Shown here: positions 8,970 to 54,309 of the stretch, piece by piece
Numbering within the stretch: position 1 is the first letter of the stretch
How the letters are laid out: each line of letters opens with the position of its first letter
DNA from: Ochromonas danica
Lineage: Eukaryota > Sar > Chrysophyceae > Chromulinales > Chromulinaceae
DNA length: 64,000 bases
Direction of reading: 5' to 3'
Assembly (NCBI GenBank): GCA_015146655.1
Contig: VKHL01000050.1
Coordinates: 122,404 to 186,403, forward strand
The notes under the pieces: model-generated
The model's database searches: none
The model's input: only the letters and a program-made list of their open reading frames with translations
Told to the model about the DNA's origin: nothing
Translations under genes and position numbers: made by a program

Positions 8970-8977
8970 AACGCGTT
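8970..8977. promoter_or_regulatory. AACGCGTT palindrome (MCB-like) in USP39 / 9047-gene divergent promoter
   Basis: Perfect 8-bp palindrome containing ACGCGT, 105 bp from the USP39 ATG and 70 bp from the divergent gene's ATG. A related AAGCGCGTTT follows at 8997-9006. It is one of eight such sites in the window, all in promoter positions. Confidence 0.5.
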
Positions 8978-9046
8978 ATTTGAAAGAAAGATATAAAGCG
9001 CGTTTATCATCTGTGAGTGAGCAACTTTCAAATTAAATTGGATGAG

Positions 9047-11157
9047 ATGAAGAAGATGATGTTGATGGGAGAGATCCAGCGCCAGATGAACAGTCAGCTG
9101 CGAGGGTTTACTTCACAGGAGAGAGAGGAACTGCTCACCTTGTTAGGCTGGCTGGGACTTCGTCAATATCGCAAATGCTTCCCTGAGGAGGCGCTGGCGT
9201 GGCCGCGACTGCAGCGACTGCTCGGTGAGTCATCAGACCCCCCCCTACTGCTGTCCAGTAGCTGACAAACCCCCTTGTCTTGTTTAGAGCGATACACTGA
9301 GGAGATCCTCCAGCTCGACACTTCTCCAGTGGCCAACACTGCCAAGGCAGAGGAAGTGCTGCCCAGACAGAGAAAGAGTCGTCCTGATGCTATGGCGCAG
9401 TATCCCTTTGTCGACCCCGACGGGTCAGTCCCTCAAGCACTGCAAGGAGGATATCTAGATCGCCCCAATTTGCTCCTCATGGGACAGCCTGGACGCAAGC
9501 GATTCCTTGAGAAGGTCTTCGAAGAAATGCGATTTGATCGCGGCGGCATTCGTCTCAGTGACCTACCCGAGGCATTTGATGTAAGTGCTACTCTCGTCCT
9601 CCTCCTCCTCCTCCTCATATTGGGTATTCATTCATGACAGAGAATTGGAGTTCATCTCTCACCTGCATTGAAGAGAATGTTCGAAAAGACACGATCCAAG
9701 TGGACCAATGGCCCTCTGGATCACCCCGCAGCAGACGAGGAAGAGGAGCGCTACAATCGCCTGCACTACATGGAGCGCTACCTCTCCCTCACACAGTGGA
9801 AGACCTTGGCACAGCGACTGCTGAACCTCTTGCGTGAAGGCCGCGATCCGTCCAGTCTCTCAGACCTGCTCACCTTCTTACAGCCTGTACATAATCACAC
9901 ACAGCAGAGAGAAGAGTTCTACGATGAGGAGGAGGAGGATGGTGTAGGGCAGGGAGAAGAGAAGGACCCGCAGGTCTTTCTTCCTGAATATTACAGCGAA
10001 CAACAACAACTTCCAAAACACTCACGACACAGTCGATCACGTCAGTCAAGAAGTAGCAATGGCAATGGAAAGGCGAGGTCGAAGAAGGAAGACCATCGCC
10101 ATCAACTTAAAACGATTCCATCGAAGATTCGAGATCTTGTTCAACGTGATCGACAACGATTCCAACGCACTGATCGTCATCTACAAGCAGCTGCCAAAGA
10201 AGTGATCGCTGAGAAGAGGGTACAAGACTTGATGGACACCATGCCCTATGGTCTCTATGACCCCCCTACCACTACTACTACTAGGACAGCCACCAGCAGC
10301 AGTCAACCGCAATGGCGCCGCCCTATTGCTAGTCGCTCTGGTCGAGACATCGACATCACAGAGGGACGATCTGCTTTGGATATCGCCGAGGCTTTCCTAC
10401 ATGGCTCTATAGCACGAGAATTGGGTGTCTCTCCAGAAGAGTTGGACTTGATTGATGATCATTTGACACCTGCACAGGCTCAAGATGTGGCAGCACAGCT
10501 ACTGGGTGAGTGAGGCATTGATGTTCTCCTATCCTCTCACTAGACCTTGTCGTGACTGTCTGTGTTGTTGATGGCGTTGTGTGATCTAATGTAGGGTTGA
10601 AGAGAGCTAATGCTCTTGGACAGCAGCAGAGAGCAACCCACAGGAGGTCTTCCTCGAGAGAAGATTTGGATTACAAGCCGTGGACAGAGAGAGAAAAAGT
10701 GAGACAGCGAGAAGACGAAGCCAAAGCTATCTATGGGTCTGATTGGAAGTCATCTCGTGGTGGTTGGGTCGCTGACTTTGGCCCAGCACATACCCATCCT
10801 CTCTATCGTGGGCCTGAACGTTATCGGATGTCCTTCCAGGATTTCAAAAGAGAGAAGTCTCGCTCTCCTTCCCCTGATCGCTCTCGTCTAGACATACCAG
10901 AGGTTCATGATGAAATGCTCTTCCAAGTTGCTAGAGACTTGGTGGACCATCGTGAAGAAGTGAGAGACATGAGCAATGAGCCTATCGCAGACAGTCTTCG
11001 AGTGACAGGCGGGATGGCAGCATTACCGCAAAACACATTCGCTACCACCTTGCTTCCCAACGAAAATGAAAACTCTCTTTTGGCTGAAGAGGACATTCTT
11101 TCCACATTCCAGAAGAGTGTGGCGCTGAAAGATGTTCCTCTTCGATCCAGTGAGTAA
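9047..11157 (+). CDS. Unrecognised conserved-looking protein, four exons
   Basis: Exons 9047-9224, 9288-9580, 9641-10505 and 10595-11157; all junctions keep phase and use GTGAGT or GTAAGT donors. The 632-aa product is hydrophilic, with no signal peptide or membrane segment. The N-terminal ~190 residues are ordered, with a helical start (FTSQEREELLTLLGWLGLRQ), a PRLQRLLERYTEEILQ helix and a GGIRLSDLPEAFDRIGVHLS segment reminiscent of a degenerate EF-hand pair. Then comes a basic, low-complexity Ser/Arg/Gln region and a C-terminal module with KSSRGGWVADFGPAHTHPLY. I do not recognise the family. A partial tandem copy lies just downstream at 11392. It shares a divergent promoter with USP39. Confidence 0.75.
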
Positions 11158-11391
11158 ATTGGTAGTAAATTGAGTTTTTTTTTATGTTTTCACGGTTAGG
11201 GTTACGTAAATTGTGACTAGTTTACAATCTCTTGTGGCATTAGCCCATACATATATACGGATGAATGAATGAGAGGTGGCAATGATTTGTTGGTTATTGG
11301 GTGATTAGATCGTGACTAGGTATAAGAAGGGGAGACCTAAGGGCCAACCGTCTATAGACTACTTTCCAGCAAATACATTTGTATTTCCTAC

Positions 11392-11640
11392 ATGGAATTA
11401 GCCGCATACCTAGCGCTTCTGGAAGAAGTTAGAGATGCACATGTTAGGCACATCATGACCTTCCCCGAGGAGGCGGTGGCGTGGTCGCGATTGCAGCAAC
11501 TGCTAGGTGAGCCATCTGACAGGGTTAAGGCTAGGGTGAACTCTCTTTTAGCTGAAGAGGGCATTCTATCCACATTCCAGAAGAGTGTGGCGCTGAAAGA
11601 TGTTCGAATGAGTAAGTTAAGACGATAAATTGTATTTATG
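11392..11640 (+). pseudogene. Internally deleted tandem copy of the 9047-11157 gene
   Basis: The 78-codon reading frame 11392-11628 joins two distant pieces of the upstream gene. FPEEAVAWSRLQQLLGEPSD matches exon 1 plus its read-through intron start (FPEEALAWPRLQRLLGESSD at 9180-9239). NSLLAEEGILSTFQKSVALK matches the end of exon 4 (11072-11130). About 1.8 kb between them is missing. Similarity is clear at DNA level and continues into the 3' flank, so this is a duplication-deletion, not convergence. The parent's donor GGTGAG is retained but translated through. It is probably a relic, though the frame is open and begins with ATG, so a short expressed protein cannot be excluded. Confidence 0.65.
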
Positions 11641-11787
11641 CTTTCATGGTTTGTCGTCACATTGGCATACATAGACAGAGGAGGATGGAATGAATGAACG
11701 AATGAATGTGCTCAGCAGCAACTTGCACAACTTTCTCTATTGATCAAACAAGTGTCGAGATAGCGAGAGGAGAGAGATGGGGTGAGG

Positions 11788-13200: not shown

Positions 13201-16200
13201 ATGCTTTCCCCGAAGAAGGTGGCAGTGGGCAGTAGTCCCTCTGGCAGTGGCAGTGGCAGTGGCAGTGGCTCTAGCCTGCCCTTCGCCTCTCAGCCTGTCG
13301 ACTTCGACACAGAAGAACCCAATCCTATCCGAATTAATCAAATGTATAGTGCTGTCTTGGATCATTTGCTCACTCCTCCACAAGTTAAAGAAGGGTTAAT
13401 GAGTAGTCAATCGAAAGAGAAAAAATGGCAAACTGTGAAGATGTATCGAAAACTGTTCGAAGAACACAGTGGGTCATCCTCAACCTCTTGGGGGGATCGT
13501 GAGAATGCACTCCTAACCAGCATTGCTCGCTCGAAGATGCCTGATGTCGCTCATCTCTCACGATTGAAAATTGTTCTATCCTCTGCTAATCGCGAGTTGA
13601 TGACTTCTTTCCTTGACGCGGGTGGAATCTCTGTCTTACTTCGTGCTATTGAAGGACGATTGAATTGTCGTCCACAAAGAGAGGTGGATATCGCTATTCT
13701 CTATGAAATCCTCTCATGTTGCAAAGTCATAATGAATAATGACTTGGGAATGGAGGCCTTTGCTGCTACCCCAGGAGCGATTGACATTGTAGCTCGCTGC
13801 TTGAAGTTTGAATACAAGCTCTTCGCCTTGCTGGTAAGACCTGCGCCAGCTTCTTGACAGTTGTCTTTACTTGTCATTTCGATCATAACTAACATGTGCT
13901 GTGTGTGCAGGTTCTCGAGATATTGTCTGTGTGCTGCTACTATTCAGATAAAACTGCAAGTATTGTCTGGCAAGGCATGAGGATGCATGCTCGTTTCCAC
14001 CAAGAAGCGCCTTTTTCTTCTTTATTACAGACTCTTCTCCATGAAGATATCGAATATAAAGCATCTATCATGCAGTTCATCAACAGTTTAATAATGGGAC
14101 AGTCTGATACAACCGCCAGATTTCTGTTGCGCAGTGAGTTCAAGAGCCAGTTATTGGACGAAAAAGTGGATGAGAGCTGTCGAAAGGTGGAGAAAGAGCT
14201 GTCAGTGCTTCCTCAACTGGAATCTTCTGAAGAACAGTCTGATCCTAATTTGAGCAAAGCGCTTAAACTCAGAGGTCGAACATTGACCATTATTCATGGC
14301 ACCAAGGCCTTGGATGAAAGAAAAGTTGAGGCCATGATCAAGAATATCAACAATAACAATGTTCCACTGCATGATGAACTACCTGAGCCTGGAATTTCTG
14401 TACAAGGTCAATCCTTTGAAGTCAAATCAAAAACCCTTTCTATCACTGTTAATCCACTAGCCGGTACCATGGCAGGGCTTTTTCATGTGGCCAAAAATGC
14501 TGATAAATTGGAATCGAAGTTCTTAGATATGGTGGGTGGTAAAAAGACAAAGAGAAGATGGTTTGAGCTGGATGGTCATGCAATAAAATGGTGTGCAGGA
14601 CATGACAAAGAGGTGGAATACAAAGGAACTATTCCCATTTCCTCTGTTCTGGAGATCAGGAACTATACCACAGATCCTGCTATTTCTTCTTCTTGCCAGC
14701 ATTGTCTAGAGATTGATACAACTGATCGTGTCTATGCTTTGGCCTCTGAGACGTTAGAAGAGAAAGAGAAATGGATCACTGCGTTACAAAAGGCACGGGA
14801 CGATTATATTATTGCGAAGGGGTCGTATAAACTTCAGACTCGAGAACTATCACCAGCTGACGTGGGTAAGTTTGTGGAAATGTTCAGGAAGCAGGTTGCA
14901 GTTTACCAGTCGATCGCGACGGAAGATCGAAGACTTCAACTTGACGTGGCGGGGTTGGACCTGTCTAATGCTAATGAAGTACTACGATATCTTCTTTTGG
15001 AAGCTACTTCAAATGGGAATATTAGTCGCTTACTATCAATTTTGTATGAGTTGTTGCTCTTGCCCCCTGGGGCCCAGGGATGTTGGGAAACGGTCCAGCT
15101 GTCCTTGCAGAAATTTCGGGAATCTGCTGTGCGAGATACCGATGAAGGTGTTAAGATCATGACGACTCCGACTATTCTCGACTTATTTGTCAAAAAGACT
15201 CAAGAAAGCGGTGCTGGATATGGACAAGTGAGCAAGTTAGCGCTCACATTGTTGGCGCATGAGCGAGAGACAGAGAATCTACAAGACACCATTCGACAGC
15301 TGGAGAAAAAAGTCACTGAGCTGAGCAAAGAGGTGGAGCAGAAGTCTTCTCGAGATGAAGTTGAAACAACTCCGACAAGTGCACAGGCTAGACTTGACTC
15401 ACAACCGAGTCAAACTGTTCAACGCTCCCGTCATACAGTCGCTCAGTCCAGAAGGCGTGTCTCGCTGCTTCATCGAAGCAAAGAGATGACTCGAAACGAT
15501 GCTGGCCAGTCTGCTTTGACGGCTCAATCACCAGAGAAAAGGGATGACGTGGGTGCTTCTGAAACTTCCCGAGTGCTCTCAACAGTTGATGAAGGCGACA
15601 TAGACATAGAGGTGCAAGCAATACCTTCTGATGATGTGAGGCAGAAGAAAGCAGACAAAGATGAGGAAGCTCCAGTTCCAGCTGCTCCGGCGATCCCATC
15701 TTTTTCTGTTACTTCCATTCCGACTGCTGCATTGCCATCAGCTCCAGCTCCAGCTGCGGTGGTGGATGAGCGCTATGCGAAGTACGCTAAGATGAAGACT
15801 ATGCTTCCTGAAGGAGCTGTGAGACAGAAGATGATGGTAGACGGGTTCAGTGAGGTAGAAATAGAAGCATTCTTCTCAGGTGCTCCGTTAGGCGCTGCCT
15901 CGACTCCTGCAGTGCCATCAGCTCCAGCTCCAGCTGCGGTGGTGGATGAGCGCTATGCGAAGTACGCTAAGATGAAGACTATGCTTCCTGAAGGAGCTGT
16001 GAGACAGAAGATGATGGTAGACGGGTTCAGTGAGGTAGAAATAGAAGCATTCTTCTCAGGTGCTCCGTTAGGCGCTGCCTCGACTCCTGCAGTGCCATCA
16101 GCTCCAGCTCCAGCTGCGGTGGTGGATGAGCGCTATGCGAAGTACGCTAAGATGAAGACTATGCTTCCTGAAGGAGCTGTGAGACAGAAGATGGTGGTAG

Positions 16201-18011
16201 ACGGGTTCAGTGAGGTAGAAATAGAAGCATTCTTCTCAGGTACTCCTGCAGTGCCATCAGCTCCAGCTCCAGCTGCGGTGGTGGATGAGCGCTATGCGAA
16301 GTACGCTAAGATGAAGACTATGCTTCCTGAAGGAGCTGTGAGACAGAAGATGGTGGTAGACGGGTTCAGTGAGGTAGAAATAGAAGCATTCTTCTCAGGT
16401 ACTCCTGCAGTGCCATCAGCTCCAGCTCCAGCTGCGGTGGTGGATGAGCGCTATGCGAAGTACGCTAAGATGAAGACTATGCTTCCTGAAGGAGCTGTGA
16501 GACAGAAGATGGTGGTAGACGGGTTCAGTGAGGCAGAAATAGATCGGTTTTTTGGTTCGGGAGGCTCTGCGCAGGCATCCCGCGCGCCGGTCCCTCCTCC
16601 AAAGCCTCCAGCTCCAGCTCTTGATCTTCCTCCTGAAGGAATGACACCCAAGCCGAAAATAAAACCTGCCACCAAACTGAAGGGCCTGTTTTGGACTAAG
16701 CTAAAACCAGATCAAGTGAAAGCAACTCTGTGGTATAATCTGCCTGATTTCAGCCTGCCTTCTCGAGATGCTGCACTGTTGGAAGAATGGTTTAGCTCGA
16801 AGGGTCCTGGTGAAACCTCAACGTCAAAGAAAGTGGAAAGCAAAGGAGAAGAGAATGCTGTAAAGTTGGTTTCAGTTCTTGACGGTAAACGAACTCAAAG
16901 TGTTCTGATCTTGTTGGGAAAACTTCGAATAAATCCTGAAGATCTCGCTCAGCGCATACAGGACCTCGACTCCGAATATCTTGACCAGGAATTGACTTCT
17001 GCTATCCTAGAGGTTGTCCCAACGCCTGAAGAGTCGACAGCCGTGAAAAGTTTCAGCAATCCTGCCGCTCTGGATAGAGCAAGTCGTTTGGCATTCCATC
17101 TGAGCGCTCTGCCTCGTCTTGCTCAACGACTTGAGTGCCACCTACTGGGATTTACTTGGCCAATTAATGCCACTATCACCACTGCACAAGTGCAGGCCAT
17201 TGCTCTGGCAGTGACTGAATTGAAAGCGGATCAACGAAAGATCGAGAAGATTTTCTCGATGGTTTTAGGTATAGGCAACTATATTAATGGCGACACTGCC
17301 AGAGGTCAAGCTTATGGCGTCAAAATAGATATATTTTCCAAGGTAACTAACTTGAAGGCCCAGCTTCCCTCGCAAGGGACGTTGATGAACTTCATCGCAC
17401 TGATTGTGGAGCAACAAGCGCCTGATATCCGCGATATCTCTGAGAAGTGGACGGGTGTTTGGGCTGCTGGGGATATTTCCTTCAAACAGCTGATCACAGA
17501 TATCAACCAACTGGAAGTCCAGCTCAATAAAGTAGAGCAAGAGCTTGTAAAAGCTCGAGAAATGTCTTTGGGGGCTCCTTTAATCAAGCGATTGGAACAA
17601 ATTTCTCAGGCGAATCGACCTAAGTTCGACAGCCTCAAGAAAATGTCCAAATCTGCAGAAAGTGAACTGGAGCACCTTATGGCTCGATATGGTGAGGACT
17701 TGCGAGCAGTAAGTGATGAAGATCCTTGTAAGAAGTTCTTCGTTACAATTGCTGACTTTGCCAAAGCTCTGCGCTGTGCGCTGGAAGAAAACAGTGCCCG
17801 CCGTGCTGAAGCAGAAAAATCACAACAAAAGTCTGCTGCGCCAACCACTTCAATTGAGACGGAAAGCAGTGGGAAGATCAATGAAGAGGGCAGTGTCAAG
17901 AAGAAAGCGCCGCAAGAGAATATCTTTGGTCGCTTCCATGATGCGCAGAAAGCCTCTGCTGGAGATGTTCTTGCGGAATTCAAGATGCGTATGGCCAAAG
18001 GCAAGAAATAA
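13201..18011 (+). CDS. Diaphanous-type formin with PH domain and WASH-complex-like repeats
   Basis: Exons 13201-13833 and 13911-18011, 1577 aa. Formins nucleate and processively elongate unbranched actin filaments. Order: (GS)n linker near the N-terminus; GBD/FH3 armadillo region from about residue 40 to 390 (LSRLKIVLSSANRELMTSFL); PH domain about 396-518 (KKTKRRWFELDGHAIKWCAG ... EEKEKWITALQKA); a second helical part and coiled coil about 650; five tandem repeats about 818-1093; a minimal proline stretch PVPPPKPPAPA; FH2 about 1118-1505, starting KLKGLFWTKLKPDQ and containing VLGIGNYINGDTARGQAYG. The FH1 is very short for profilin-actin delivery. Each repeat carries YAKMKTMLPEGAVRQKM plus DGFSEVEIEAFF, resembling the WASHC3/CCDC53-type KMxxxGxPxxAVxxKM motif. 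Convergent with the MDC1-like gene, 123 bp between stops. Confidence 0.92.
15736..16555 (+). repeat. Five in-frame tandem repeats in the formin (periods 180, 180, 159, 159 bp)
   Basis: Near-identical DNA copies encode PSAPAPAAVVDERYAKYAKM-type units. The GCTATGCGA marker recurs at about 15772, 15952, 16132, 16291 and 16450. The first three spacings include an extra APLGAAS linker; the last copy has diverged at its 3' end (EAEIDRFFGSGG). Only a few bases differ between copies, including M/V in KMMVDG/KMVVDG, so they were recently duplicated or homogenised. Confidence 0.93.
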
Positions 18012-18134
18012 AGCTCTCGAGCAAGTCTTAATGCCAAATGCCAATAATTGCACCTCAATCTTTATATCAAAGCTGTGTCCCATATATGGGAAGGTTTCAT
18101 TAATGATTAAATTAAATAATAACATCACCATCAA

Positions 18135-21100
18135 TCACGTGAAGCGGTAAAGATCCAAGAAGTGATCATGAAGGTCCAGCTTCTGTCGTAGCACAGCTTG
18201 AAAGATCACTTCGAGTGAGTAAACGCCCAAAGCGCCGCTGGCAATGGCGAGATTGACAACATCATTGCTGAGCTCCTCTTTGGCCACAGACGAGTGGCTG
18301 ACTATTATGATCGAGCGAAAGGGTTTAGATTGGATTGCATCTTCGGCTTTGGTGGTGGTCGTCGTTGTTGTCTTTCCTTTCTTTTTACCAGCGCCCTTTC
18401 CTTTAGTGATTGTCTTTCCAGGCAATAATAGCTCTGCATAGTCGAGGATGTCTTCGATCCAAATTCCTCCACCAGATTCTACAATAACTTGCATCTCCTC
18501 CGCAGCTGGTGCAGTTTTACCACAAACCCCACGAGTGAAGAAGACACCATATCCCGTGAACACTCCTTCTTTCCTACCTCTTACTGCATTAATAGTATGA
18601 GAAATACGTATCCGAGTGATGGTTTGAGGCAAGTTGTAATGCCACAATGCCTCTTTCTCGAGATCACGAACCAGATATTTACTGCTTGCTAAAGCTTCTT
18701 CATATCGTCCTCGAACATCATCAAAGACTGTAGAGTCAACAGTAATTTCATCACTTTCCTTGCGAACGATGTCATCTATCTCACTATCCAGCTTCGCCTC
18801 GTCTGCAATTACATCTAATACTTTCCCCTCCGCTAAGCATTCTTGTATCCACTCCTCTGTCAATACATAGCGTACGCCGTAATTCAAGGCCATCATCAAC
18901 TTGGGCGTACGCTTTAACTCTGACGTGGTTATGCAATGAGTGGCTTGCACGGGATCTGATGTTATGGAAACATGTCCGCCAAGCTTCTTCAAAGGTTTAA
19001 TATAGGGAGCTTCCTCGATCTTTGTGAACAAGAGATAAGCTATACCAGTTGTGATTGACTTGCCAGCAGCTGCTCTAGATGGAGGAACCACTTCTTTCGA
19101 CGAGGATTCTCTCGAAGCAGCCGCTCCCTTGCCTCTCTTTGCTGGTGGAGCTGCCACAGCCTCTACAGGAAGAGCTTGAGAGAGAGAAGGAGAAGACGAC
19201 GATGATGATGACGAGGAATTCTGAGGCTCAACAGTTGTGTCACTCTCAGTAGCAACAGGCAAGGCACGCTTGCGTCCACGACCTTTGGCAGCCTCCACAG
19301 CCACAGCCACAACAGGTTGGACTGCCGCGCTTTCCTTCCCTTGCTGTACACTTTGCTTTCCTTTCCGCGAGCCTTTCTTCACTACTTCCACTCCAACTCC
19401 CGTCCCTGCTCCTTCCTCATCATTGCCAGGAGTCGACATTACCAGCTTCGCTTGTGCTGGTATTAGTGTTGTTGATGTCTTGCTATCTAGCGACGCTTCA
19501 GCGGGAAGAATGGAAGAAGAAGAGTTGACGAGGGGGGTATCTACGAGCAGATCTTCTGCAGAGGAGGACTGTTCTTCTCCTGCAATGCCATTTGTAGCAC
19601 CACCAGGCACTCCTCCTCCTCCTTCTTCTTCTTGAAATCGCACTGGTGAGCGCTTCTTGTTTGAGGAAGGCATGGCTGTAGTAGAGGTAGCAGGGGCAGC
19701 AGCAGCTAACACTTCCTCTGGAGAGTGCAAGGCTGTGGCATTCTTCACAGTGTTTGCTGCAGTAGCAGAGGCAATCAACTGCTCGAAAGGATCAGTTGCT
19801 TTGCTGCGTGTACGAGGACGACGCGATGGCAACACCTCCTCGTCACTGTCCTGCAGTGCTGCTCTCTCTGCTTCTCCATCATCTTCTACCTCTTTCTCTC
19901 TTGCCTCAATCTCCTTCTTCGTTGATAAGCGACCACCCTTAGTGCTACCCTTGGCAATCCTTCCACCACCTCTCCCTTTGGTCCGTCGGCTACCCTTCTC
20001 TTCCTCGTCACTGTCTTTTAGCTCGGAATCGTCTGTCTCCAAACTTGACACACTCTTCTTGACTGCAGCCTTTCCTCTGGCAGTCTTCTTCACTGGAGGC
20101 TCACACTCTTCTACTTTGTTCTCTTCTTCCTTCGCCCTCTTGTTACTCACTCGCTTAGTGACGACTTCCTCCACAACTGAAGCACTTGGAGGAGGAGCAA
20201 GACCAAGAAGAGGAGCAGGAGCAGGAGTGAGGAGTTCTCCCTGCGGAGTGAGATCAGGCAATCGTCTGGGGCCAACAAGCCCTTCCCCTCCCTCACCTTC
20301 GTCCTCTGACTGGGCTATGCTACCTCTCTCCCTGGCAAGTGGCACGGGAGGAGGAGGAGCAAGAGGTGGTTTGCCAGGATCAGAAGGTGCAGGTGTTCGG
20401 ATGGCGTTCAATCGGTCGAGCAGTGAGACTGACGCAGAGTTTGTTTCCATAGAATTGGCAGAGATCGAGGCGAAGGAGACAGGCGGACTCTCTTTGACCA
20501 TTAGATCAGGTGACAGCCGATCATCCTCGCCTTCGATCTCTTCCTCTTCTCCATTACGCTTTGCCTTACCTCCGCGTGCTACTAGTGCTGCCTCATCTTC
20601 ACGATCTACTTGTGTGGGGAACTCGTGGTGTAGAGCAGGACTTCCACCCGCTGCCTTGAGAGGAATGAGAAGGCGAGGGATGGAGTCCAGCTGGTATTCA
20701 TGAATGCGTGCCTTCTGCTTCTGTGCTGAGTGGCTCTGCTCGTCTGCTGTACTATATCCTTCTGTCAAGTCATCACGTTGCAGCTGCAACAGTTTGTCTT
20801 TCTCACTGCTATTGTTTGCCTCACTGCCAGTGGGTGTGAGAGAGTGTTCTTCCATACCAGGCAGCAACTGAGTCTCCACTTGCATTCCTCCTCCCCAAGC
20901 CCTCTCTCGCTCTGTCAGCGACTGTTGAGGCTGTAGCTGTTGCTGTGGCGGTTGTTGTGGTTGTGTAGCCTCTGTAGTCTGTGTGGAGGAAGTGCGAGCC
21001 TGTGAGGTGCTCACCAGGCGAAGTGTACAGCAAACCATCCCCAACCGCAGCTTGCCACCATCTCCTAAGAGGCGAGAGTTCTCAGAGATGGTGAGCTTCT

Positions 21101-21512: not shown

Positions 21513-21526
21513 GGAAACGCGTTTCC
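21513..21526. promoter_or_regulatory. 14-bp palindrome GGAAACGCGTTTCC upstream of the MDC1-like gene
   Basis: The longest of the MCB-like sites in this window, 91-104 bp upstream of the start codon at 21422. The core ACGCGT is the yeast MluI cell-cycle box; regulation by an MBF/E2F-type factor here is inference. Confidence 0.55.
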
Positions 21527-21707
21527 ACAACAAACAGTCTAAATAGGGTTTTTCTAATGACCTCTGCTCTTCTTGTCTATGATGTCTTGTCTGGTAAATT
21601 TTATCAAATTGTAATTTGTATAAAATTGTAATCGGCCACATCGCTTTATGATTGATTGTATTGGTGAGATATGAAGTGGTCTGTTCCATAAAAGAGGCAA
21701 AAGATAT

Positions 21708-21785
21708 TGACTGAAGTGGGATTCGAACCCACGCCCGAAGACTGCGGCCTTAACACAGCGCCTTAGACCACTCGGCCATTCAGCC
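21708..21785 (-). tRNA. tRNA-Leu (anticodon AAG)
   Basis: 78 nt with a full cloverleaf. Acceptor GGCTGAA pairs with TTCAGTC (one G-U), discriminator A, no encoded CCA. D-arm GCC/GGC; anticodon stem CTGTG/CGCAG with loop TTAAGGC, giving AAG (read as IAG after modification); T-arm GTGGG-TTCGAAT-CCCAC. The TTCGAAT box B and the TGGCCGAGTGG box A are intact. A TTTT tract follows the 3' end on this strand, fitting RNA polymerase III termination. The variable arm is short for Leu. Confidence 0.95.
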
Positions 21786-21960
21786 ATTAACTTCACGAAA
21801 TCATGTCGAAATAGAAAGAAGTCGCTGTGCACAAAGGCGAAAGAAGATATTCAATTGAGAAGCAGAAGATCTCCTCTAGTGTTTTAGACCTTTTAGGCTT
21901 TAATATCTGCTTATGCAAAAGGGTCACAAACGAAACCAGAGCAAAATAAACAAAACTCTT

Positions 21961-22038
21961 TGACTAAAGTGGGATTCGAACCCACGCCCGAAGACTGCGG
22001 CCTAAACACAGCGCCTTAGACCACTCGGCCATTTAGCC
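21961..22038 (-). tRNA. tRNA-Leu (anticodon TAG)
   Basis: 78 nt, nearly identical to the neighbour at 21708. The acceptor stem has a compensated change (GGCTAAA/TTTAGTC against GGCTGAA/TTCAGTC) and the anticodon loop is TTTAGGC, giving TAG. Box A and B are intact, discriminator A, and a TTTT tract lies downstream. Tandem on the same strand, 175 bp apart; the pair decodes CUU/CUC and CUA/CUG. Confidence 0.95.
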
Positions 22039-22131
22039 ATTTGGACTTTGACATTCACTTGAATAGAATGACAGAACACGTCCAACTCGTGAGAGAAGGT
22101 GAAACAGCGTTAAAATCTATTATCTTCGAGG

Positions 22132-25697: not shown

Positions 25698-25966
25698 TTC
25701 TATGGATAGGTGGGGTTCTAGCGAGGTTGCTTCCCTTCTCCTTCTACAGCATGAGCGGGAGATCACACAAGCGCAGTTAGCTTTGCCACTGTTATTATTA
25801 GCTTGCGCAGGGGGCATGGGTCTGAAAATGGCACTTTCAAACCTCAAAGTGGCCGTTACTCAACAGCCACAGTCGACTTTTCAAGAAAAGCAGCTGCAAA
25901 CAGAGAAAACGCGCTTTTGGAAACACTGCGTGTCGAGAGTCCCAATCAAGAGAAGGCAAGTTAGCA

Positions 25967-27089
25967 ATGAGGTCTTATTGGCTGGCCTTGACACTTGCAC
26001 TATCTGCACAGATTTTGTATGGTTTTCATACTCCCCTTCCACACTCAAGTCTAACTCGACTGACGCGCTCTTCTCATGAGCTGCAGATGGTCTTTGACTT
26101 CTTGCGCAAGAGAAGTGAAGAAGGTCTAGCACAGGTGAAGAATCTCGCTGAGAAGACTCTCGAAGGCAAACTAGGAGAGGCTCTTGAAGAAAGTGCTCAG
26201 TATTTGCGTACTCGTTCGAGCATCGATCGCGACAATCTGAAGAAGCTCATGACTGGCCTGGCCTCTTCTCGAGACCGTCTGCTGGCTGGCATTTCTGCAG
26301 CTTTCCAGGGCAGCTCTGAGGATGTCTCTCTGGAACAACGACTAGAGCGCTTGGAAGAGACTCTCTTACAAGCTGATATAGGCTATTCAACCACTCAGAC
26401 TATCTTAGAGGATCTGCGGCAATACGCCAAGACTGAGAGCTTGCAGGAGGAAGACATCACTCCTGTGATGAGAGAGAGACTCATCGAGGCTTTGACTGCC
26501 AGCCATCCCGATCTGTCGTTGAAGAGGAGCGAGGCCAAGCCCACCGTGCTGCTCATCATGGGAGCCAATGGAATGGGCAAGACCACGACCATCGGCAAGA
26601 TTGCTCATCGTCTTCGCAACGAAGGCAATTCCACTGTCTTGCTAGCAGCTTGTGATACCTTCCGTGCCGCAGCTGTGGAGCAACTGCACGAATGGGCTAA
26701 CCGCGCTAACGTATCCATCGAGCAGCCGCTGGCCAGTGAGCGAGGAGGAAGTCCGTTACCTGTTCTTGAACGATCACTAAAGCGTGCACAGGAAGAGAAC
26801 TTTGACATTCTTATCGTGGACACGTCTGGCAAGCTGTCTAACAACTTCCACGCCATCGACATGTTCCAGCAGATGAAAGCCAAGATCGACGAGGCCATCC
26901 CAGGCGCTCCTCATGAGACCATCCTTGTAGTGGATGGCTCTCTTGGTCGCAATGCAGTCGACCAGGCTCGGTCTTGGTCTCAACACGTTGGCGTGACTGC
27001 CCTGGCCGTGACCAAAATGGATGGCACGGCAAGAGCGTAAGTCATCATCATCACTCTTCTTCTTCTGTTACACCCATCAAGTTAAGACG

Positions 27090-27142
<53 letters not shown>

Positions 27143-36254: not shown

Positions 36255-36262
36255 AACGCGTT
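36255..36262. promoter_or_regulatory. AACGCGTT palindrome upstream of the SEN1-like gene
   Basis: Eight-base palindrome followed by TT, 92-99 bp upstream of the ATG at 36163. Same spacing as the site upstream of the MDC1-like gene. Confidence 0.5.
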
Positions 36263-42696: not shown

Positions 42697-45600
42697 TTAC
42701 ACAGTGTTATGGATCGATCCAGCCCAGCTACCTTTCCTTTTCCTCGGACTCTCGTTCTCTTTGAAGAAAGAATGTTGAGAATATTCTGCGGGCTGATCAT
42801 CATCAACGTCATCATCATCATTACTATCATATGGCCGCTTTCTTCTTCGACTATCTCCTTGTTCACCTTCATCGTTTTCTATTGCTGGCGAGGTAGTATC
42901 ATATCGTATGGTGTCTGATGGAAGCTTCTCAGGCTCGTCTTCTGCACGTTTGAAGATCTGCTCTATGCATGTGTTAGCTTCTTGAACAACGTCATCATCT
43001 CTGGCGTCGTCTTCTTTCACGTTTTCTTCTCTACCCTGCCAACCACCTTCACCACTACTTGCTTGACATTCCACTTTAAAAGAGTAGGGCTCAATTTGCT
43101 CATCTTCGCTAGTGGAAGCATTATCGTCACTGCCAGCCGAACTGCTGCTGGAGTCTTCGATGGCCTCCTCCTCCGCGGCAGGTTTGGATTCCAGTTGAGA
43201 AGGAGTTGGAGGCTTCTGCTGTTCTGGATCTTGGTTGGGTATTGTTTCCTGTTCAGGTTGACTGATGGGAGCCTCTTCAAGGCCTAAGTTGCGACGAATC
43301 TCAGTCCACTTTCCATGCCAACTGAACAACAATAACAATGACAATCACAATCACAATAACCAGACAGAAAAAAACGAGTTAGCAGACAAACAGCAAACAA
43401 TGCTTACATATCAATGTCTTTAAGAAGTGATTTTCTCTCTTCATCGATGTCTTTTTGAGTGACTGTCGATGAGAAGAACTGTCTGCTGAAGTAATCATTA
43501 ATATCATGAGAAGTCGACGATGGCCAGAGATCTGTTATCATGTTGGCAAAGCGACCCACAAACACTCCACAATCATAACCATTCATCTGCTGAGGAACCT
43601 GCACCGTGGAAGAGAAAAGTGATTAGCAAAACGCACAGGCGGACTCGTTAAGATGGAAATGACACTACTGTACCTTGCATCGAACGGAGGGCAGACAAGA
43701 GACAAACTCTGCCTCGGGAATGCTTGCCTCCAGTGACAACTCCTTCCTTCGCGCTTGCCACTCATAGTAAAGATAAGATGTCAAACGCTTGCCGATCTTC
43801 TTGTAGGGATGCATGGTCAAAGAGTCCAGAGAGAGTAAACACGCCCGGTCTGCGAGCACCTGACCAACCGTGGAGCTCCCGTCATCAATCATCTCCTCGA
43901 CTGGTTCTACCTTGTTCAAGCGAGGATCCTCCCACTAGCAGCCAGGAAGACGGATTAAGAGATGACATCAATACAGTACTGGAAACAAAGACAGACATTA
44001 CCAGGAGATGAGGTCTCACGAGGACAAAGAGACTCCAGTGATTCGTGAGGTTAATTGGGAAGAAAACAAAGTCCATCTCGAAAAGATTGACATTCTTGGT
44101 CCACCGAGCAACTAGTTGGTGGGCAGCTTGGCCACCATTGCTTGAACTTCCTTCCGTCAGCTTGGAATAGAAGTGACAACTGAAGGCATGGATCTTCTTC
44201 CTTCTCTCTGGCTCTAGCCTAGACAAGATGAACTTGATCTTCAAATCAATGAGGTTGTCATTGAAATAGACACCCGGATCCAATCGCTTGAGATCGCCTT
44301 GGCAGACAGTGACAGCGTCTGGAGCTTCAGGTTCGATGGGGAAGATGACGTAGGTCTTGCGATTCTCTGGATCGGAATAGTCGATCACAACGTCCGCTCG
44401 ACTCTTTCGCCTTGGCCGAGTAGCTCCATCACGATGGTCATCTTTTTCTACAATGTTTTCAACTCCTGCTCGGTAAAAGCGCTCTTTGACGACTGCCTCC
44501 GGGTATTGCCCTTCAACTATTCGTTTTATCACAGTTATTTCGTTATCATCCATTTTTCGAAACTTCTTGAAGGATCTTCTATCTGCGTTTTTCTCCTATA
44601 CAAGACAGTAGATTTTCATCTAAAGCACGTGACATGGTTAGTGTTGGAAAGAACGATGGTCTTACATATTGATCCTTAAACCTCGACCACTCCTCGCGAG
44701 AGAAGAGACATATAATGAACCTGCCGGACGGAGGCAAGTCAGCTTTGATGACGCTTGATTTATCCCGCATGCTAGCATTGGGATCGAGGATGCGTGATTT
44801 ACCCACCGCGACGTTGGTCAGTCGTAAGGTATCCCTGGGGACTAACACCAGGCAATGCCCAGACAAAACCTCGCACTGCCTGAACACAAACACACAGCAA
44901 ATACATTGTCAGATTAAGGCTAATATTGAGAAGGACATGGGCTTTGTCGTACTGACTTTAGACATTCAATATAGTCACTTTCAATATCTTCTTTATATTG
45001 CCGACCATCGACGTCATGAAAGATGAGATTCCAACTGAGTTTCTTAGCCACACAAGACAGCGAGATCACTGGACTGCCATGCACAATGGGCAGCATGCCT
45101 ATATGAAGTGCCTTCAAAGGACTCAGAATTGAAACAACAACAATATCCTTCTCTGTCAGAGCTTCCGGTTTGAAGCGCTCTTTCTGAGCATTAACCGCTG
45201 TGGAAGAGTTGAATTGCTTTATTGAAGCATCATAGTTATATACACCTACATCATCATCGCTGTTGGCCAGGTCGATTAACTCTTCTTTCTTTTTCTTGCT
45301 GGTAGAGTTACGCAAGGGATACTTTCTGTTTTGTTGTTGACTTACCAAAGCCTGTACCTGCTGCATAGCAGGTCTATCATCACCAAGAGTTGCCTCTTCT
45401 TTGTCATTGGTCTCCTCATAAATAACTCTCTTCTTCTTAATGGGAATCTTTGCTTGATATTGTGCTACTGGCGTTGTGGTTGGCGGTTGGTGGCTCAGCT
45501 CCAGGCTACTCACACTGTTTAGCGCCTCCACGGCTTCACTTGGCTTGGGGGAAGGCTCTGGCGGGGTCTTATTTATGGACAGGGAAGATCCCGCTGTGAT

Positions 45601-46092
45601 GACAGTCTGTAACATCCAGTCATTCCCGGCGATCAGACCACTGCCTGTTGACTGATCAGCATGGCTAGAGGAGATTACCTTAGGCTTGTCAGACACCACT
45701 TTAGAAGATCCACTACTGGAGCGAGGTCTACTTTCTGTGGAAAAGCTCGCTGGGGCTCGTGCATGGGAAGCGGAGAAAGGTCCAGTTACAAGCTGTGGAT
45801 AGTGATAGCTACCACGACCACTTGTCAAGAAGAAGAAGAAGGAGGAGAAGAAGATTAGGAGCCACCAGAGAGACATGCTAGAGACTGTTAGGTTTGTGAC
45901 TTACCTTCCTGATCTACCATATGTCTTGCTAGGAGCGAAATCTAACTTTCCTATTCCAACACCTTGTTTGAGACCAAAGTGGATAGGTTTGGAGCTAGGA
46001 GGAGTGGTCTCGGCTGAAATATCCTCAAACACTCGTATCGTCGATTTAAGAGTCATGCTGTCATTAGAATCGTCTGCCCAGTTACCGCTCAT
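42697..46092 (-). CDS. ULP1/SENP-family SUMO protease, SENP6/7-like
   Basis: Seven exons: 46092-45905, 45820-44957, 44879-44666, 44595-44002, 43934-43674, 43598-43408, 43321-42697; all phases agree, 978 aa. The C48 peptidase domain is in exons 4-6: DNLIDLKIKFIL, catalytic His in LTNHWSLFVLV, Asp in LLSLDSLTMHPYKKIGKRL, Gln and nucleophile Cys in VPQQMNGYDCGVFV. A ~40-residue insert (WEDPRLNKVEPVEEMIDD...) separates the His and Asp strands, as in SENP6/7, which trim poly-SUMO chains. The N-terminal ~500 residues are disordered and basic with a PH-like fold possible around exon 3; the C-terminus is acidic with nuclear-localisation-like RRRKR. An AACGCGTT palindrome lies ~107 bp upstream. Confidence 0.92.
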
Positions 46093-46425
46093 GGTGCCTC
46101 AGCTCAATCCTTGCAATTGCTGTTCTACAGTAGTGCTGGCTAACCAGACTGGACTGCTTGCTGCCCCTGCTGTCTATTTTGAATGATGCCCATGCTGTGA
46201 AACGCGTTTCTCACCTCCTCTCTGCAAGAAAACGCACCGACAGCACTCACTCTGTCAGTCACCCAGCAGACATACAATGGTATAGAGACTGTAGGGAGGA
46301 AATGATACGGATTTCAACTGATAGCTTTTCGTCTGCCCTGGCATAGACCTCAGATGATAATTCATAGTGGTCAAAGAACATCATAATGTCCTTTCTATAC
46401 CTCAGAATAACAGGCAGTAGATCGC
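46093..46425. other. Intergenic, ULP promoter / ADH 3' flank
   Basis: 333 bp without a gene. Contains the 12-bp palindrome GAAACGCGTTTC at 46199-46210, the only notable element. Confidence 0.45.
46199..46210. promoter_or_regulatory. GAAACGCGTTTC palindrome upstream of the ULP protease
   Basis: Perfect 12-bp palindrome with an ACGCGT core, 107-118 bp upstream of the ATG at 46092. Confidence 0.5.
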
Positions 46426-47638
<1,213 letters not shown>

Positions 47639-49097: not shown

Positions 49098-49219
49098 AGT
49101 TTCGATGCTTAACTCTTGTGACTGCTCACGCCTCCATCCAGAGCCAGCCACACACCAGACAGATCGACAATTTCGGATTTCAGGAAAATTGCACTTTCGA
49201 CTTTTTGGGGAAGATTCAC

Positions 49220-49229
49220 AAACGCGTTT
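49220..49229. promoter_or_regulatory. AAACGCGTTT palindrome in RPL13A / PI31 divergent promoter
   Basis: Perfect 10-bp palindrome, 123 bp upstream of the RPL13A ATG and 95 bp upstream of the PI31 ATG. Confidence 0.5.
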
Positions 49230-49323
49230 CTTTATGAGAAACTGCTTTTCTCTGTCCCTCTCAGGATGTCGAAAAGCAGGAGGTATCAATAGGAAAGAGA
49301 AGAAGAAGAAGAAGAAGAAGAAG

Positions 49324-50719: not shown

Positions 50720-50751
<32 letters not shown>

Positions 50752-50802
50752 GGAGAAGCAAGGCTATCGAGTGGTCTATGGATGGGACTAGTTACTGTGT
50801 GT
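50352..50802. repeat. Intergenic microsatellite cluster
   Basis: 451 bp between convergent PI31 and zinc-finger genes. Holds a TATAG/TAGTC-type degenerate array (about 50600-50690) and a (GTCT)6-7 tract at 50725-50750. A C8 run directly follows the PI31 stop. No gene seen. Confidence 0.8.
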
Positions 50803-51651
50803 CTAGGGCATAGAGGAGATGGCCGCGAGGGTGGCCTTGACCTCTGCCATGGAGGAGATGAGCTCGCTCAGCGCAGACTCCATGGCCTGCACCTGCTCTG
50901 ACACGAACACTAGCGCCTCTTCCTTACTCGCAAACTGCTGCGAGGTGGAGGTGGAGGTGGAGGACCTGCTCGTCTTCTTTGGAGAAGTGAGCAGTTTGGC
51001 TTTGCGCAGTCCTCGCCCAGCCTCCCCAGCCATAGGCACTACCTGCGACCTCTCCTCCTCCTCCTCCTCCTGCTGCTGCTCCTTCTCTATCGTCCTCTCC
51101 ACTGATGATGAAGCTTCTCGACGAGCTTGCTTGGTCACGGGTCTCTCAGGACTAGCAGTGGCAGTGGCTGTAGAGACCTTGGTGAGCTCCTTGCCCTTCC
51201 TCACGCCCTCGTCTACCCGCCTGGCCGGATTGTCTGCAGTGCACGACTTGTTGTGGATGGCCAGCTTCTCAGGGAGGAAGGTTCTCCCACAGTAAGCACA
51301 CTGGCTGAGCGCGACACTATTGAAGGCCTCGCTGGCCATGCGGTTGATCTCGTCAAGCGAAGGCTCCCCTCCTCCTCCTCCTCCCGCGCTCTTCACTGGA
51401 GACCCACCTCCAACATCATCGTCATCGCCACCCGCAGCTGTCTTTCGACCAGCAAGTCTCAAGGCGGGGTCTTCTGGCAAGGGCTTTCTCTCTCGAGGGT
51501 CTTTCTGAGATTCTCTCGCGATCCAAAGCTCTTTGCACTGTTTCAAGTGAATGTCATAGCTGTGAAGACCATATTGACGACCACAAATGTAACAAACTCT
51601 GGTCTTGGGTCCTGCCCCCAGAGGTTTGTTCCCTGCAGACAATCCCTCCAT
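50803..51651 (-). CDS. ZC2HC1-like C2HC zinc-finger protein
   Basis: Single exon, 282 aa; the first ATG in frame is at 51651. Two C2HC fingers of the ZC2HC1/ZNF474 family: TRVCYICGRQYGLHSYDIHL ending KQC, and SQCAYCGRTFLPEKLAIHNK ending SC, joined by a Gly/Ser-rich linker. The C-terminal half is low-complexity (a Glu/Gln run) and closes with a predicted helix, EEALVFVSEQVQAMESALSE. Family members are often found in ciliated organisms, but their function is not settled. The promoter contains an inverted repeat of the same unit seen upstream of CDC40. Confidence 0.85.
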   Translation of the reverse strand: MEGLSAGNKPLGAGPKTRVCYICGRQYGLHSYDIHLKQCKELWIARESQKDPRERKPLPEDPALRLAGRKTAAGGDDDDVGGGSPVKSAGGGGGGEPSLDEINRMASEAFNSVALSQCAYCGRTFLPEKLAIHNKSCTADNPARRVDEGVRKGKELTKVSTATATASPERPVTKQARREASSSVERTIEKEQQQEEEEEERSQVVPMAGEAGRGLRKAKLLTSPKKTSRSSTSTSTSQQFASKEEALVFVSEQVQAMESALSELISSMAEVKATLAAISSMP

Positions 51652-52127
51652 CCCTGTGGGACCGTTTCCAGCACTGCCAAGTGAGCCCTTCAGTGGGTGA
51701 TGCTTCACACGCAATACAATAATAGCGAACACTGTGTGATGGTGTCCACTGTTATTGTGTTGCGTGCGAAGTACCTCCCACACACTCTACACTACACTAC
51801 ACTACACTACACTACACTACACTACACTACACTCTCCATATAGTCACTAGAAGGGCGAAAGGAACTAAATAGACTAGCTATATGATATACACGTAAGCTA
51901 CTTGTACTGTGTAAGGTCTAGCAAGAAGAAGGAGTTAAGATGTCTGGAAGAAGGTTAGCTTGGATTTACAACAGCAAGGTTAGTTAGCTAGCTAGTTAGT
52001 AGATAGTTAGTACTTAGTAGATAGTAGATGGTAGTTGGTGGTAAGTTAAAGTCATCATACTGTAGTATAAACACATCCTATCCTATCCTATCCTATCCTA
52101 TCACATGATATCATATGATATTGATTG
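51652..52127. repeat. Intergenic with inverted repeat and pentamer arrays
   Basis: 476 bp. Near the zinc-finger gene is the inverted repeat 51703-51771. Next a (ACACT)n array at 51788-51832, TAGTTAG-type short repeats (about 51975-52020) and (ATCCT)n at 52074-52101. No gene seen. Confidence 0.8.
51703..51771. promoter_or_regulatory. Inverted CGCAAYACAATAAYAG element upstream of the ZC2HC1-like gene
   Basis: Arms 51703-51725 and 51749-51771 match at 20 of 23 positions around a 23-nt loop. They lie 52-120 bp upstream of the ATG at 51651. The arm core equals the direct repeats found upstream of CDC40. Confidence 0.6.
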
Positions 52128-54155
52128 TTAAGGTTTGCGTAAGAAGACTTTGCCTTCCCTCAGCTCACAGTCTAGAATCTTCGCTCCTAACTGCTTGCCA
52201 AACCTTCGAATGACAAACTTGGTAGACGGTGTGGCAATATTGATGACTAGGCCAGGTTTACCTGCTCGACCACATCGACCAGCGCGATGCAAATAGTGCT
52301 GCGCATCAGTGGGCAGCTCGAAGTTGATCACGTGGGAGAGGTCCGGGATGTCCAAGCCACGCGCTGCCAGCTCAGTGGTCACGACTAGCCGCAGCCGTCC
52401 ATCTCGAATACGAGCCATGACTTCTTTGCGATCGTCTTTGCTGGAGTCACCGTGTAGTGGCGCACACAGCAGACCTCGATCTAGCAGCTGCTCGTAGACC
52501 ACCTGCACGCGGTGCGGGTCGTTGACGAAGATCAGCGCCCTCTGCACCTCTGGCTGGCTGTGCAACAGCTTCTTGAGCATCTCCAGAGACTTGATGCGAG
52601 CGCATGAGATGAGGCCGTGGGTCACACTGGCAGGCAACAGGTTGGCATGCGGTACAGAGACTTCTTCCCATCCACCCACTCCCACGTATTGATTGGCGAA
52701 GTCCTTCACAGCGGGATTGTTCTTGGCAGTGGCAGAGGCGAGACAGAGAAGCAGAGGTCTCGTTGTCGACTTGACTGCTACCTCCTCCTCCTCCTCACCA
52801 TCGTCATGGTCATAGTCTATCTCGTTGTTAGCTTTAGCTTTGGCTTTGGCTCTGCGGAGGAAAGGCATGGCCTCTACAATAGTGCGAATCTCGTCGAGGT
52901 AAGGCGGCTGCAGCAGTCCGTCGGCCTCGTCGATAACGACTGCTCGCACGTTACCCAGTCGCAGCTTCTCCTCGCGGAAGACAATCTCTGCCAGTCGACC
53001 AGGTGTAGCGATGACAATCTGTGGCTTCTTCTCACGAATCTGAAGGATTTGATGGCGAAGGTTCGCCCCTCCAATGATGGTCACAGAGGTCAACCCCGTG
53101 CCTTCAAACACCGCCTTGGCCACTTTGCCAATCTGATTGACAAGCTCTCGACTAGGAGCGAGTACCACCGCCTGTACCTTCTTCTGGTTGGCATCGAGCA
53201 GGCGCAGGAGGGGCAGCAGGAAGGCGAGGGTCTTGCCTGAGCCCGTCTGGCCGTGCAGCACGACTGACTGCCCCGCCACGAGGCGAGCGATGGCGACCTC
53301 TTGGATGCGAGTGGGGCTGTAGATGCCTAGCGCCTCCAGGTTGTCCAGCAGCACGGCGTCGTCGATGCCCAGCGCCTCGAAGGTCTTCTCCCCGAACACT
53401 TGCTGGCCGCTGCCATTCTTGGCGAGTTGCTCTGCGATGGCGTCGAAGTCGAAGGGCGCGAAGGACTGCTTGTTGAACAGCTTGGCTGCCTTGGCTTCTT
53501 CTTCTGCTTGCTTCTTCTTCTTCTCTTCTGTGGTAGAGCCCTTGGCAGAGGGAGTGGTAGTAGCAGGAGGAGGAGGAGGAGGGGTAGGAGGCTTGCGAAG
53601 ACGGTAGGCCACCTCTGAGAAGGGCTTCTGGGCCACGAAGCGGTCCAGCACATGTTCGTCTCCTCCTCCTCCTCCGCTGCTACCCTCCTCATAGTGAAGG
53701 TCATACTCCTCCTCCTCCTCATCGGTGGGCCACAGTGTCTCTCGCTGGCGAGGAAAGCCAGAGAACTTCTTGTCCTTGTCCACGAAGACTTTCTTCTTCT
53801 GCTTGCTGGGGCTCTTCTTAGCAGACACTCTGCTACCACTACCCTCCTCCTCCTCCTCGTCCTCCTCGTCATGGTTATCGCCAGCCTTCCACGTCTTGAA
53901 CTTGATGGCCATTTCTCTTTCCAAGTCCTCAATGCTCTGCTCCTGCACTGCTTTCTTCGAGGCAGCAGCGGGCACGAAGACTAAAGGCTTGCGGGGAGGG
54001 GAAGACTCTTTCTCGAAGCCTTTGCCTGCCTCGAACTGCTTGGCATGCAATCGTGTTAGCGAGACTTCATGAAGAAGGAGACGCGTAGTCGTCCACGAGG
54101 TGACAAAGCCACAGCAGGAGGCGAGCAGGTGCAGTACGAGGCAAAAGGTCTTCAT
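52128..54155 (-). CDS. Plastid-targeted DEAD-box RNA helicase
   Basis: Single exon, 675 aa; first in-frame ATG 54155. Motifs: Q motif GIYSPTRIQEVAI, I GQTGSGKT, Ia APSRELVNQ, Ib TPGRL, II DEAD in AVVIDEADG, III SAT, IV ALIFVNDPHRVQ, V TTELAARGLDI, VI HRAGRCGRAG. The N-terminal ~230 residues are a disordered, acidic/basic low-complexity extension with poly-Glu and poly-Pro. The first residues MKTFCLVLHLLASCCG are a signal peptide with Phe next (FVTSWTTTRLLLHEVSLTR), the bipartite plastid signal. Likely role: plastid rRNA maturation or mRNA remodelling. Three AACGCGTT sites lie 53, 110 and 147 bp upstream. Confidence 0.92.
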   Translation of the reverse strand: MKTFCLVLHLLASCCGFVTSWTTTRLLLHEVSLTRLHAKQFEAGKGFEKESSPPRKPLVFVPAAASKKAVQEQSIEDLEREMAIKFKTWKAGDNHDEEDEEEEEGSGSRVSAKKSPSKQKKKVFVDKDKKFSGFPRQRETLWPTDEEEEEYDLHYEEGSSGGGGGDEHVLDRFVAQKPFSEVAYRLRKPPTPPPPPPATTTPSAKGSTTEEKKKKQAEEEAKAAKLFNKQSFAPFDFDAIAEQLAKNGSGQQVFGEKTFEALGIDDAVLLDNLEALGIYSPTRIQEVAIARLVAGQSVVLHGQTGSGKTLAFLLPLLRLLDANQKKVQAVVLAPSRELVNQIGKVAKAVFEGTGLTSVTIIGGANLRHQILQIREKKPQIVIATPGRLAEIVFREEKLRLGNVRAVVIDEADGLLQPPYLDEIRTIVEAMPFLRRAKAKAKANNEIDYDHDDGEEEEEVAVKSTTRPLLLCLASATAKNNPAVKDFANQYVGVGGWEEVSVPHANLLPASVTHGLISCARIKSLEMLKKLLHSQPEVQRALIFVNDPHRVQVVYEQLLDRGLLCAPLHGDSSKDDRKEVMARIRDGRLRLVVTTELAARGLDIPDLSHVINFELPTDAQHYLHRAGRCGRAGKPGLVINIATPSTKFVIRRFGKQLGAKILDCELREGKVFLRKP

Positions 54156-54207
54156 AGCTGTGCTGCCAGTCAAGACAAGTCAGAGAAACTGTTTCTTCAA
54201 TACAACC

Positions 54208-54309
54208 AACGCGTTTGTTAACTTAATAAGATGCTAACTTAACAGCTGGCCTAACTTAGCAGCTAACGCGTTTATTAACTTAAACTAAAAACGTAGCAGC
54301 TAACGCGTT
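54208..54309. promoter_or_regulatory. Three AACGCGTT palindromes between DEAD helicase and TTD14-like genes
   Basis: Sites at 54208-54215, 54265-54272 and 54302-54309, each followed by T or TT and by a TTAACTTAA-like block; the last two share AGCTAACGCGTTTATTAACT. The region is partly a short tandem duplication of about 37 bp. They serve the divergent pair with ATGs at 54155 and 54335. Confidence 0.6.

Follow-up and report, generated by a model that had tools for sequence, protein, structure and literature searches.

The 64,000-nucleotide stretch of the Ochromonas danica genome analyzed here (contig VKHL01000050.1, positions 122,404 to 186,403, forward strand; hereafter the window) raises the question of why an eight-base palindrome, AACGCGTT, recurs in front of its genes and what reads it. 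A first-pass annotation had noted the word in promoters, linked it to the MluI cell-cycle box (MCB) bound by MBF in yeast and to E2F sites, and proposed a regulon of genome maintenance, SUMO/ubiquitin, and growth genes. That observation holds, and the signal extends further than the annotation stated. Judged from the genome, AACGCGTT very probably serves promoters genome-wide, roughly 5 to 8% of them, as a symmetric site for DNA binding whose optimum is close to GAAACGCGTTTC. We show here the excess of the whole palindrome, its placement upstream of predicted starts in the sequence read, the clustering of its sites, and an oriented partner word, TTAAGTTA; the clustering and the partner, which lies upstream of the palindrome, are new.

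The assembly (31,187,593 bases in 337 contigs) contains 788 copies of AACGCGTT, whereas Markov models built from 20 tiles predict 122 to 184, a 4- to 6-fold excess and a surplus of some 600 to 670 copies over composition. The tiles are bases 20,001 to 30,000 of contigs C1 to C20, picked blind to the motif, and one of them includes 2,500 N. The reversed control word TTGCGCAA is at expectation, with 517 copies versus 445 to 618. The longer palindrome GAAACGCGTTTC is present 53 times, compared with 2 copies of its control and about 1 expected, and allowing at most one mismatch gives 271 versus 90. Bare ACGCGT is also at expectation (1967 versus 1451 to 2028), yet 788 of these 1967 copies (40%) carry the A and T flanks, compared with about 8% from base composition; therefore, the six-base MluI core is not the unit. 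The half-site GAAACGCG occurs 372 times per strand, about twice the 152 to 177 expected from the Markov models. Its 744 copies compare with 861 of the reversed word, but we relied on the Markov expectation for CGCG words because the reversed-word control misleads, GCGC words being about three times as frequent as CGCG words. In contigs C1 to C3, 16 of the 30 GAAACGCG copies are part of AACGCGTT, and the remaining 14 compare with 16 to 19 expected (counted from match listings, assumed complete for these contigs). Judging by their titles, none of the matches listed in a literature search on AACGCGTT and GAAACGCGTTTC dealt with this element in algae, and the single GAAACGCGTTTC match was, again by title, unrelated.

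Genes were predicted by a small hidden Markov model (HMM) trained on the window, the 20 tiles, and 17 loci, with a median intron of 74 bp and a GTAAG donor. For the 29 of 788 sites placed on these models, the start-proximal placement expected by the first-pass annotation held. All 29 are intergenic, with none in coding sequence (CDS) or an intron; CDS occupies 58% of the tiles, and CDS plus intron 61.5%. The intergenic placement of the 21 sites outside the window has a P of 2e-9. A predicted start lies within 300 bp of 24 of the 29 sites. This holds for five of five sites in the tiles alone, compared with 9.5% of bases (P 8e-6), and for 11 of 16 in the loci (P 2e-8). Conversely, all nine copies of the control TTGCGCAA in the tiles and window fall in CDS. 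When 6-mers in the 300 bp upstream of predicted starts were ranked blind, AACGCG came first in the tiles alone (P 1e-7, uncorrected) and again in tiles plus window (P 1e-20), where the corresponding 8-mer scan placed AAACGCGT and AACGCGTT on top. Six of the 75 tile promoters have AACGCGTT within 300 bp. Extrapolated from these 75 promoters in 200 kb, the genome would have about 11,700, and the estimate of roughly 5 to 8% of promoters is based on these figures. Other words enriched upstream in the tiles and window include GCCTTGCC and CACTACAC, which are partly runs in 5-bp steps.

The palindrome is also found in groups. Pairs of AACGCGTT spaced by 10 to 70 bp occur 34 times genome-wide, compared with 1 for the control and about 1.2 expected, and part of these pairs fall in clusters of three or four. 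In addition, the partner word TTAAGTTA lies within 250 bp upstream in the sense orientation in 10 of 104 promoters and in the antisense orientation in 2. A sense copy within 400 bp is present in 9 of 30 gene–site rows, always farther from the gene than a palindrome. The arrangement of TTAAGTTA, then 10 to 70 bp, then AACGCGTT is found 80 times genome-wide, versus 4 times for the reversed control, 21 times in the opposite orientation (3 of them from a cluster in the window), and 4.6 times by chance, or 12.4 at intergenic density. The spacing is 10 to 24 bp in 48 of the 80 modules. This search covered spacings of 10 to 70 bp, and the window has three spacings of 3 bp, outside that range. The orientation of TTAAGTTA towards the gene was seen in the sequence read around sites, in nine promoters with both words. 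The word TTAAGTTA(A) is near-symmetric about a single central base, yet orientation-biased.

Several points weigh against reading AACGCGTT as a whole-palindrome promoter site. The gene models are HMM predictions that were not checked against transcripts, and the support comes from DNA sequence. The placed sites comprise 5 in the motif-blind tiles, 16 in loci L001 to L015 of contigs C1 and C2, and 8 in the window that first drew attention to the word; the other 759 were counted. For 4 of the 29 (in L001, L002, L009, and L012), no predicted start lies within 900 bp, and the L010 site is 303 bp away from one. The 6-mer ranking scores each palindrome twice, once on each strand, and the 8-mer scan of the tiles alone ranks TAACTTAA first and TAAGTTAA second, both of them words of the partner TTAAGTTA, followed by AAACGCGT third and AACGCGTT fourth. 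Some of the 80 partner modules and 34 pairs have a palindrome in common. Moreover, 6 of 10 AAACGCG copies outside the palindrome are in the 300 bp upstream of starts in the sequence read, so single half-sites may also be used.

In the window, all eight copies of AACGCGTT reported by the first-pass annotation were found, versus a mean of 0.31 (largest 4) in 100 dinucleotide shuffles. Three are extended to palindromes of 14, 12, and 10 bp, in agreement with the extension claimed earlier. The copies and the partner words next to them are as follows; a palindrome has no strand.
8970–8977, no strand: AACGCGTT between the divergent USP39-like gene (ATG 8865, minus strand) and a gene without a confident family (ATG 9065, plus strand), 104 and 87 bp from the two ATGs.
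21513–21526, no strand: 14-bp palindrome GGAAACGCGTTTCC, its AACGCGTT core 93 bp upstream of the FHA/BRCT (MDC1-like) gene (ATG 21422, minus strand); the 12-mer within it is C50:143917 in the genome scan.
36255–36262, no strand: AACGCGTT, 91 bp upstream of the SEN1-like helicase (ATG 36163, minus strand, three-exon model).
46199–46210, no strand: 12-bp palindrome GAAACGCGTTTC (C50:168602 in the genome scan), its core at 46201 lying 108 bp upstream of a predicted ATG at 46092 (minus strand).
49220–49229, no strand: 10-bp palindrome AAACGCGTTT, with the divergent uL13/RPL13A (ATG 49097, minus strand) and PI31-like (plus strand) genes on its sides.
54208–54215, no strand: AACGCGTT, cluster copy 1, between the divergent DEAD helicase (ATG 54155, minus strand) and AAA_28 (ATG 54427, plus strand) genes.
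54265–54272, no strand: AACGCGTT, cluster copy 2, inside a twice-present 27-bp sequence that also contains TAACTTAA.
54302–54309, no strand: AACGCGTT, cluster copy 3, inside the second copy of the 27-bp sequence.
54219–54226, minus strand: TTAAGTTA (TAACTTAA on the plus strand), 3 bp from copy 1 and upstream of it towards the DEAD helicase.
54235–54242, minus strand: TTAAGTTA, 19 bp from copy 1 (54208); genome module C50:176611-176645.
54276–54283, minus strand: TTAAGTTA, 3 bp from copy 2 (54265).
54313–54320, minus strand: TTAAGTTA, 3 bp from copy 3 and 40 bp from copy 2; genome module C50:176668-176723.

As had been proposed, every copy is intergenic and near a predicted ATG, the nearer one being at 87, 93, 91, 108, 5, 52, 109, and 117 bp, respectively, in the HMM gene models. 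The 5-bp distance at 49221 is model-dependent, as the likelier PI31-like start is an ATG that follows in frame after about 90 bp (identified by eye); the uL13/RPL13A start lies 123 bp from this site on the opposite side. The occurrence of shorter ACGCGT in coding sequence was likewise confirmed, as three of the four other copies in the window are in predicted CDS (866, 54081, and 60817) and one is intergenic (47262). Because the copies at 54208, 54265, and 54302 form one cluster (54208–54309), two of them in the 27-bp repeat identified by eye, the eight copies count as six independent places. Compared with the genome, whose rate of 788 per 31.19 Mb predicts 1.6 copies, the window has a higher density of the word (Poisson P 0.0003 for at least eight copies and 0.006 for at least six). 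The GC content of the tiles (L016–L035) ranges from 0.396 to 0.49, and the AACGCGTT-rich window, with 0.488, stands at the upper end. Two adjacent tRNA-Leu genes with anticodons AAG and TAG are also present in the window, at 21707–21786 and 21960–22039 on the minus strand.

A total of 29 predicted genes lie within 320 bp of a AACGCGTT, 9 in the window and 20 outside. Pfam matches back most of the gene labels given earlier for the window, namely zf-UBP and UCH (USP39-like), FHA and BRCT (MDC1-like), AAA_11/AAA_12 (SEN1-like), the DEAD helicase, AAA_28, and ribosomal L13 (RPL13A). Two labels fared less well. The Ulp1-type peptidase domain (43885–44553) lies further downstream of the 46201 site, and our model assigns it to another gene than the one starting next to that site (44799–46092), for which the Pfam search gave no match; the PI31 matches of the gene at the 49221 site fall under the curated cut-offs. 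Outside the window, Pfam was searched with the largest exon of each of 18 genes out of 20 (L013 and one L034 gene were omitted). Nine exceeded the cut-off, comprising SMI1/KNR4, EF-hand, amino-acid transporter, GDT1, LCM methyltransferase, CS domain, P-type ATPase, EMG1, and PLAC8 families; fuller models of two further genes revealed a 2OG oxygenase and a WW domain, and the remaining 7 of the 18 had no Pfam family. The genes near sites thus look functionally mixed and suggest no single process, although they are few, and the proposed regulon is not supported because of this mixture. Among other proteins in the sequence read, one predicted at L034:8226-9662 has repeated DIEGA-like motifs, which we take to be reminiscent of flagellar proteins, and no family in a Pfam search. 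The SRP54-type GTPase of the window (25826–27037) and other window proteins begin with presequences, which presumably resemble those of algae with red secondary plastids.

Which factor could read the palindrome was then assessed from the domains encoded in the genome. A single CG-1 match was detected genome-wide, at 29.6 bits before splicing and 87.1 bits when spliced by eye, and it belongs to the following gene.
C152, about 15156–18230 (L037, L038): CAMTA gene with CG-1, ankyrin repeats, and an IQ motif near the cut-off.
The CG-1 and ankyrin domains exceed the Pfam cut-offs, whereas IQ scores 20.1 bits versus a cut-off of 20.3, and the TIG domain was not detected by Pfam in this protein. Comparing its CG-1 with the CAMTA3 residues by eye, W26, W75, and Y132 are kept, whereas the alga differs at H88, W118, and the first Y of YY102/103; about half of the tested residues thus differ in this alignment. 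According to part of PMC10417383, CAMTA3 W118A still bound weakly. The alga's CG-1 domain had no match among solved structures, and a literature search for a CG-1 structure was likewise without result. The presence of a CAMTA is not new, since CAMTA was already counted among stramenopile families (PMC4222949, in the part available). Furthermore, one E2F_TDP match was found genome-wide, in a protein with two E2F_TDP winged-helix stretches (L036:1206-2422). We assume that this E2F-family gene resembles the atypical E2F7/8.

Among the factors considered, the CAMTA is the best candidate for reading AACGCGTT, although the assignment, made from domain and motif matches, is tentative. In this explanation, the palindrome would be a pair of CGCGTT words, that is, a CGCG box bound by a calcium/calmodulin-linked CG-1 factor in promoters tied to calcium or stress, which is possible but not probable. 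The gene is present with the domains described above, and AACGCGTT fits the consensus sequences (A/C/G)CGCG(T/C/G) and CGCGTT bound by CAMTAs in the available text of PMC10417383; similar motifs, AACGCGTy and CGCGTTwA, are included in the Arabidopsis promoter-motif tables of PMC3418279, as far as that source was available. However, the Phytophthora infestans CG1 site is unlike the plant and human ones in the accessible part of PMC11267843, some CAMTA3 residues are not kept, TIG is undetected and IQ just under its cut-off, the half-site shows no excess outside the palindrome in C1 to C3, and the genes near sites form no evident stress set. A general promoter-architecture element, recognized by a nucleosome-clearing or bidirectional-promoter factor rather than serving as a regulon switch, is a somewhat stronger possibility, still short of probable. 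It would accommodate the mixed gene functions, and sites favor divergent intergenic regions (9 of 32) over co-directional (1 of 32, P 0.013) and convergent (0 of 25) ones in the tiles and window. Part of this bias is expected because a divergent region has two promoters, the count includes the window sites that prompted the study, and the element is present in merely about 5 to 8% of promoters.

By comparison, it is improbable that the word is an MCB-like cell-cycle box that MBF or E2F would bind and that would define a nuclear or growth regulon. The core of the word is indeed the MluI box, ACGCGT (PMC4862756 and PMC1779545, each in part), and an E2F-family protein with two winged-helix stretches is present. 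However, a six-frame, exon-by-exon search of the genome gave no KilA-N/APSES match, although an intron-split domain could escape it, as the CG-1 domain scored just 29.6 bits before splicing; such domains are rare outside fungi in the genomes surveyed in PMC4862756, to the extent of its available text. MBF was rejected as the reader for lack of a KilA-N/APSES match in this exon-by-exon search. The target motifs of Phytophthora, plant, and human E2F contain CGCCA (PMC11267843, same part), which is absent from AACGCGTT. Only 2 of 17 matches to six E2F-type words are upstream of predicted starts, which is no upstream excess, although the counts are few. The E2F word is TTTSSCGC, and no sequence like it is contained in GAAACGCGTTTC. 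With this sequence mismatch and no upstream excess of its words, E2F was rejected as the palindrome reader. In addition, the MCM_N match at C1:467391, the one of five that was checked, has no AACGCGTT within 27 kb, and gene functions look mixed. That the word reflects composition, promoter CpG retention, or repeat spread, with no protein site, is very improbable. CpG is under-represented (observed/expected about 0.64 to 0.66), and two window copies are in the repeated 27-bp sequence, but the CpG ratio is similar upstream (0.656) and in CDS (0.662). Moreover, Markov models of upstream DNA predict 0.1 to 0.5 copies of AACGCGTT in tiles plus window, where 13 were observed, and 0.1 to 0.2 in the tiles only, where 5 were observed. 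Flank matches longer than 100 bp are overlapping stretches of one cluster, and the others span 17 to 36 bp. These CpG, Markov, and flank comparisons led us to reject this explanation. The promoter-specific palindrome of the first-pass annotation is thus strongly supported, whereas the factor (MBF or E2F) and the regulon it named are not.

Taking AACGCGTT as a symmetric promoter site, a two-fold symmetric, dimeric transcription factor would bind the palindrome, repeated sites may strengthen the response, and the partner TTAAGTTA could lend direction to a site that has none. Although similar to known boxes with a CGCG core, the element stands apart through its flanks, the clustering of its sites, and the oriented word that accompanies it. 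It shares the ACGCGT core and promoter location with the fungal MCB, and yeast MCB words from a motif search include AAACGCGT and AACGCGTT (PMC1779545, in part); unlike the fungal system, the alga has no KilA-N/APSES match, its bare core is not in excess and needs the A/T flanks, and the few algal genes read show no cell-cycle bias. Similarly, the CGCGTT of the plant CGCG box, or rapid stress response element, occurs on both strands of AACGCGTT and a CAMTA gene is present, but in the alga it is the palindrome that carries the excess, and the sequence bound by the oomycete CG1 is unlike the plant and human ones (PMC11267843, same part). The E2F/DP site is likewise a GC-cored promoter element with an E2F-family gene in the alga, but its words are not in the palindrome. 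Vertebrate promoters have a CpG-containing palindrome, TCTCGCGAGA, concentrated in promoters of varied genes; the algal element is alike in these respects and unlike in sequence and lineage.

Little is known about promoter grammar in algae with red secondary plastids, and a word that follows a rule of spacing and orientation and needs nothing but the sequence to be recognized offers a route to a reporter test and to its factor. The result also cautions against naming a yeast factor from a common six-base core, because the yeast reader protein was not found in the alga's genome by the KilA-N search. More speculatively, and with considerable doubt on our part, AACGCGTT may belong to an undescribed two-part promoter code, in which the near-symmetric TTAAGTTAA, oriented by its central base alone, would lie 10 to 24 bp behind AACGCGTT and direct it to the gene, while a dimer, possibly of the CAMTA, would read the palindrome. 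If this code with CAMTA is true, several hundred genes of the alga would be tied to calcium signaling.

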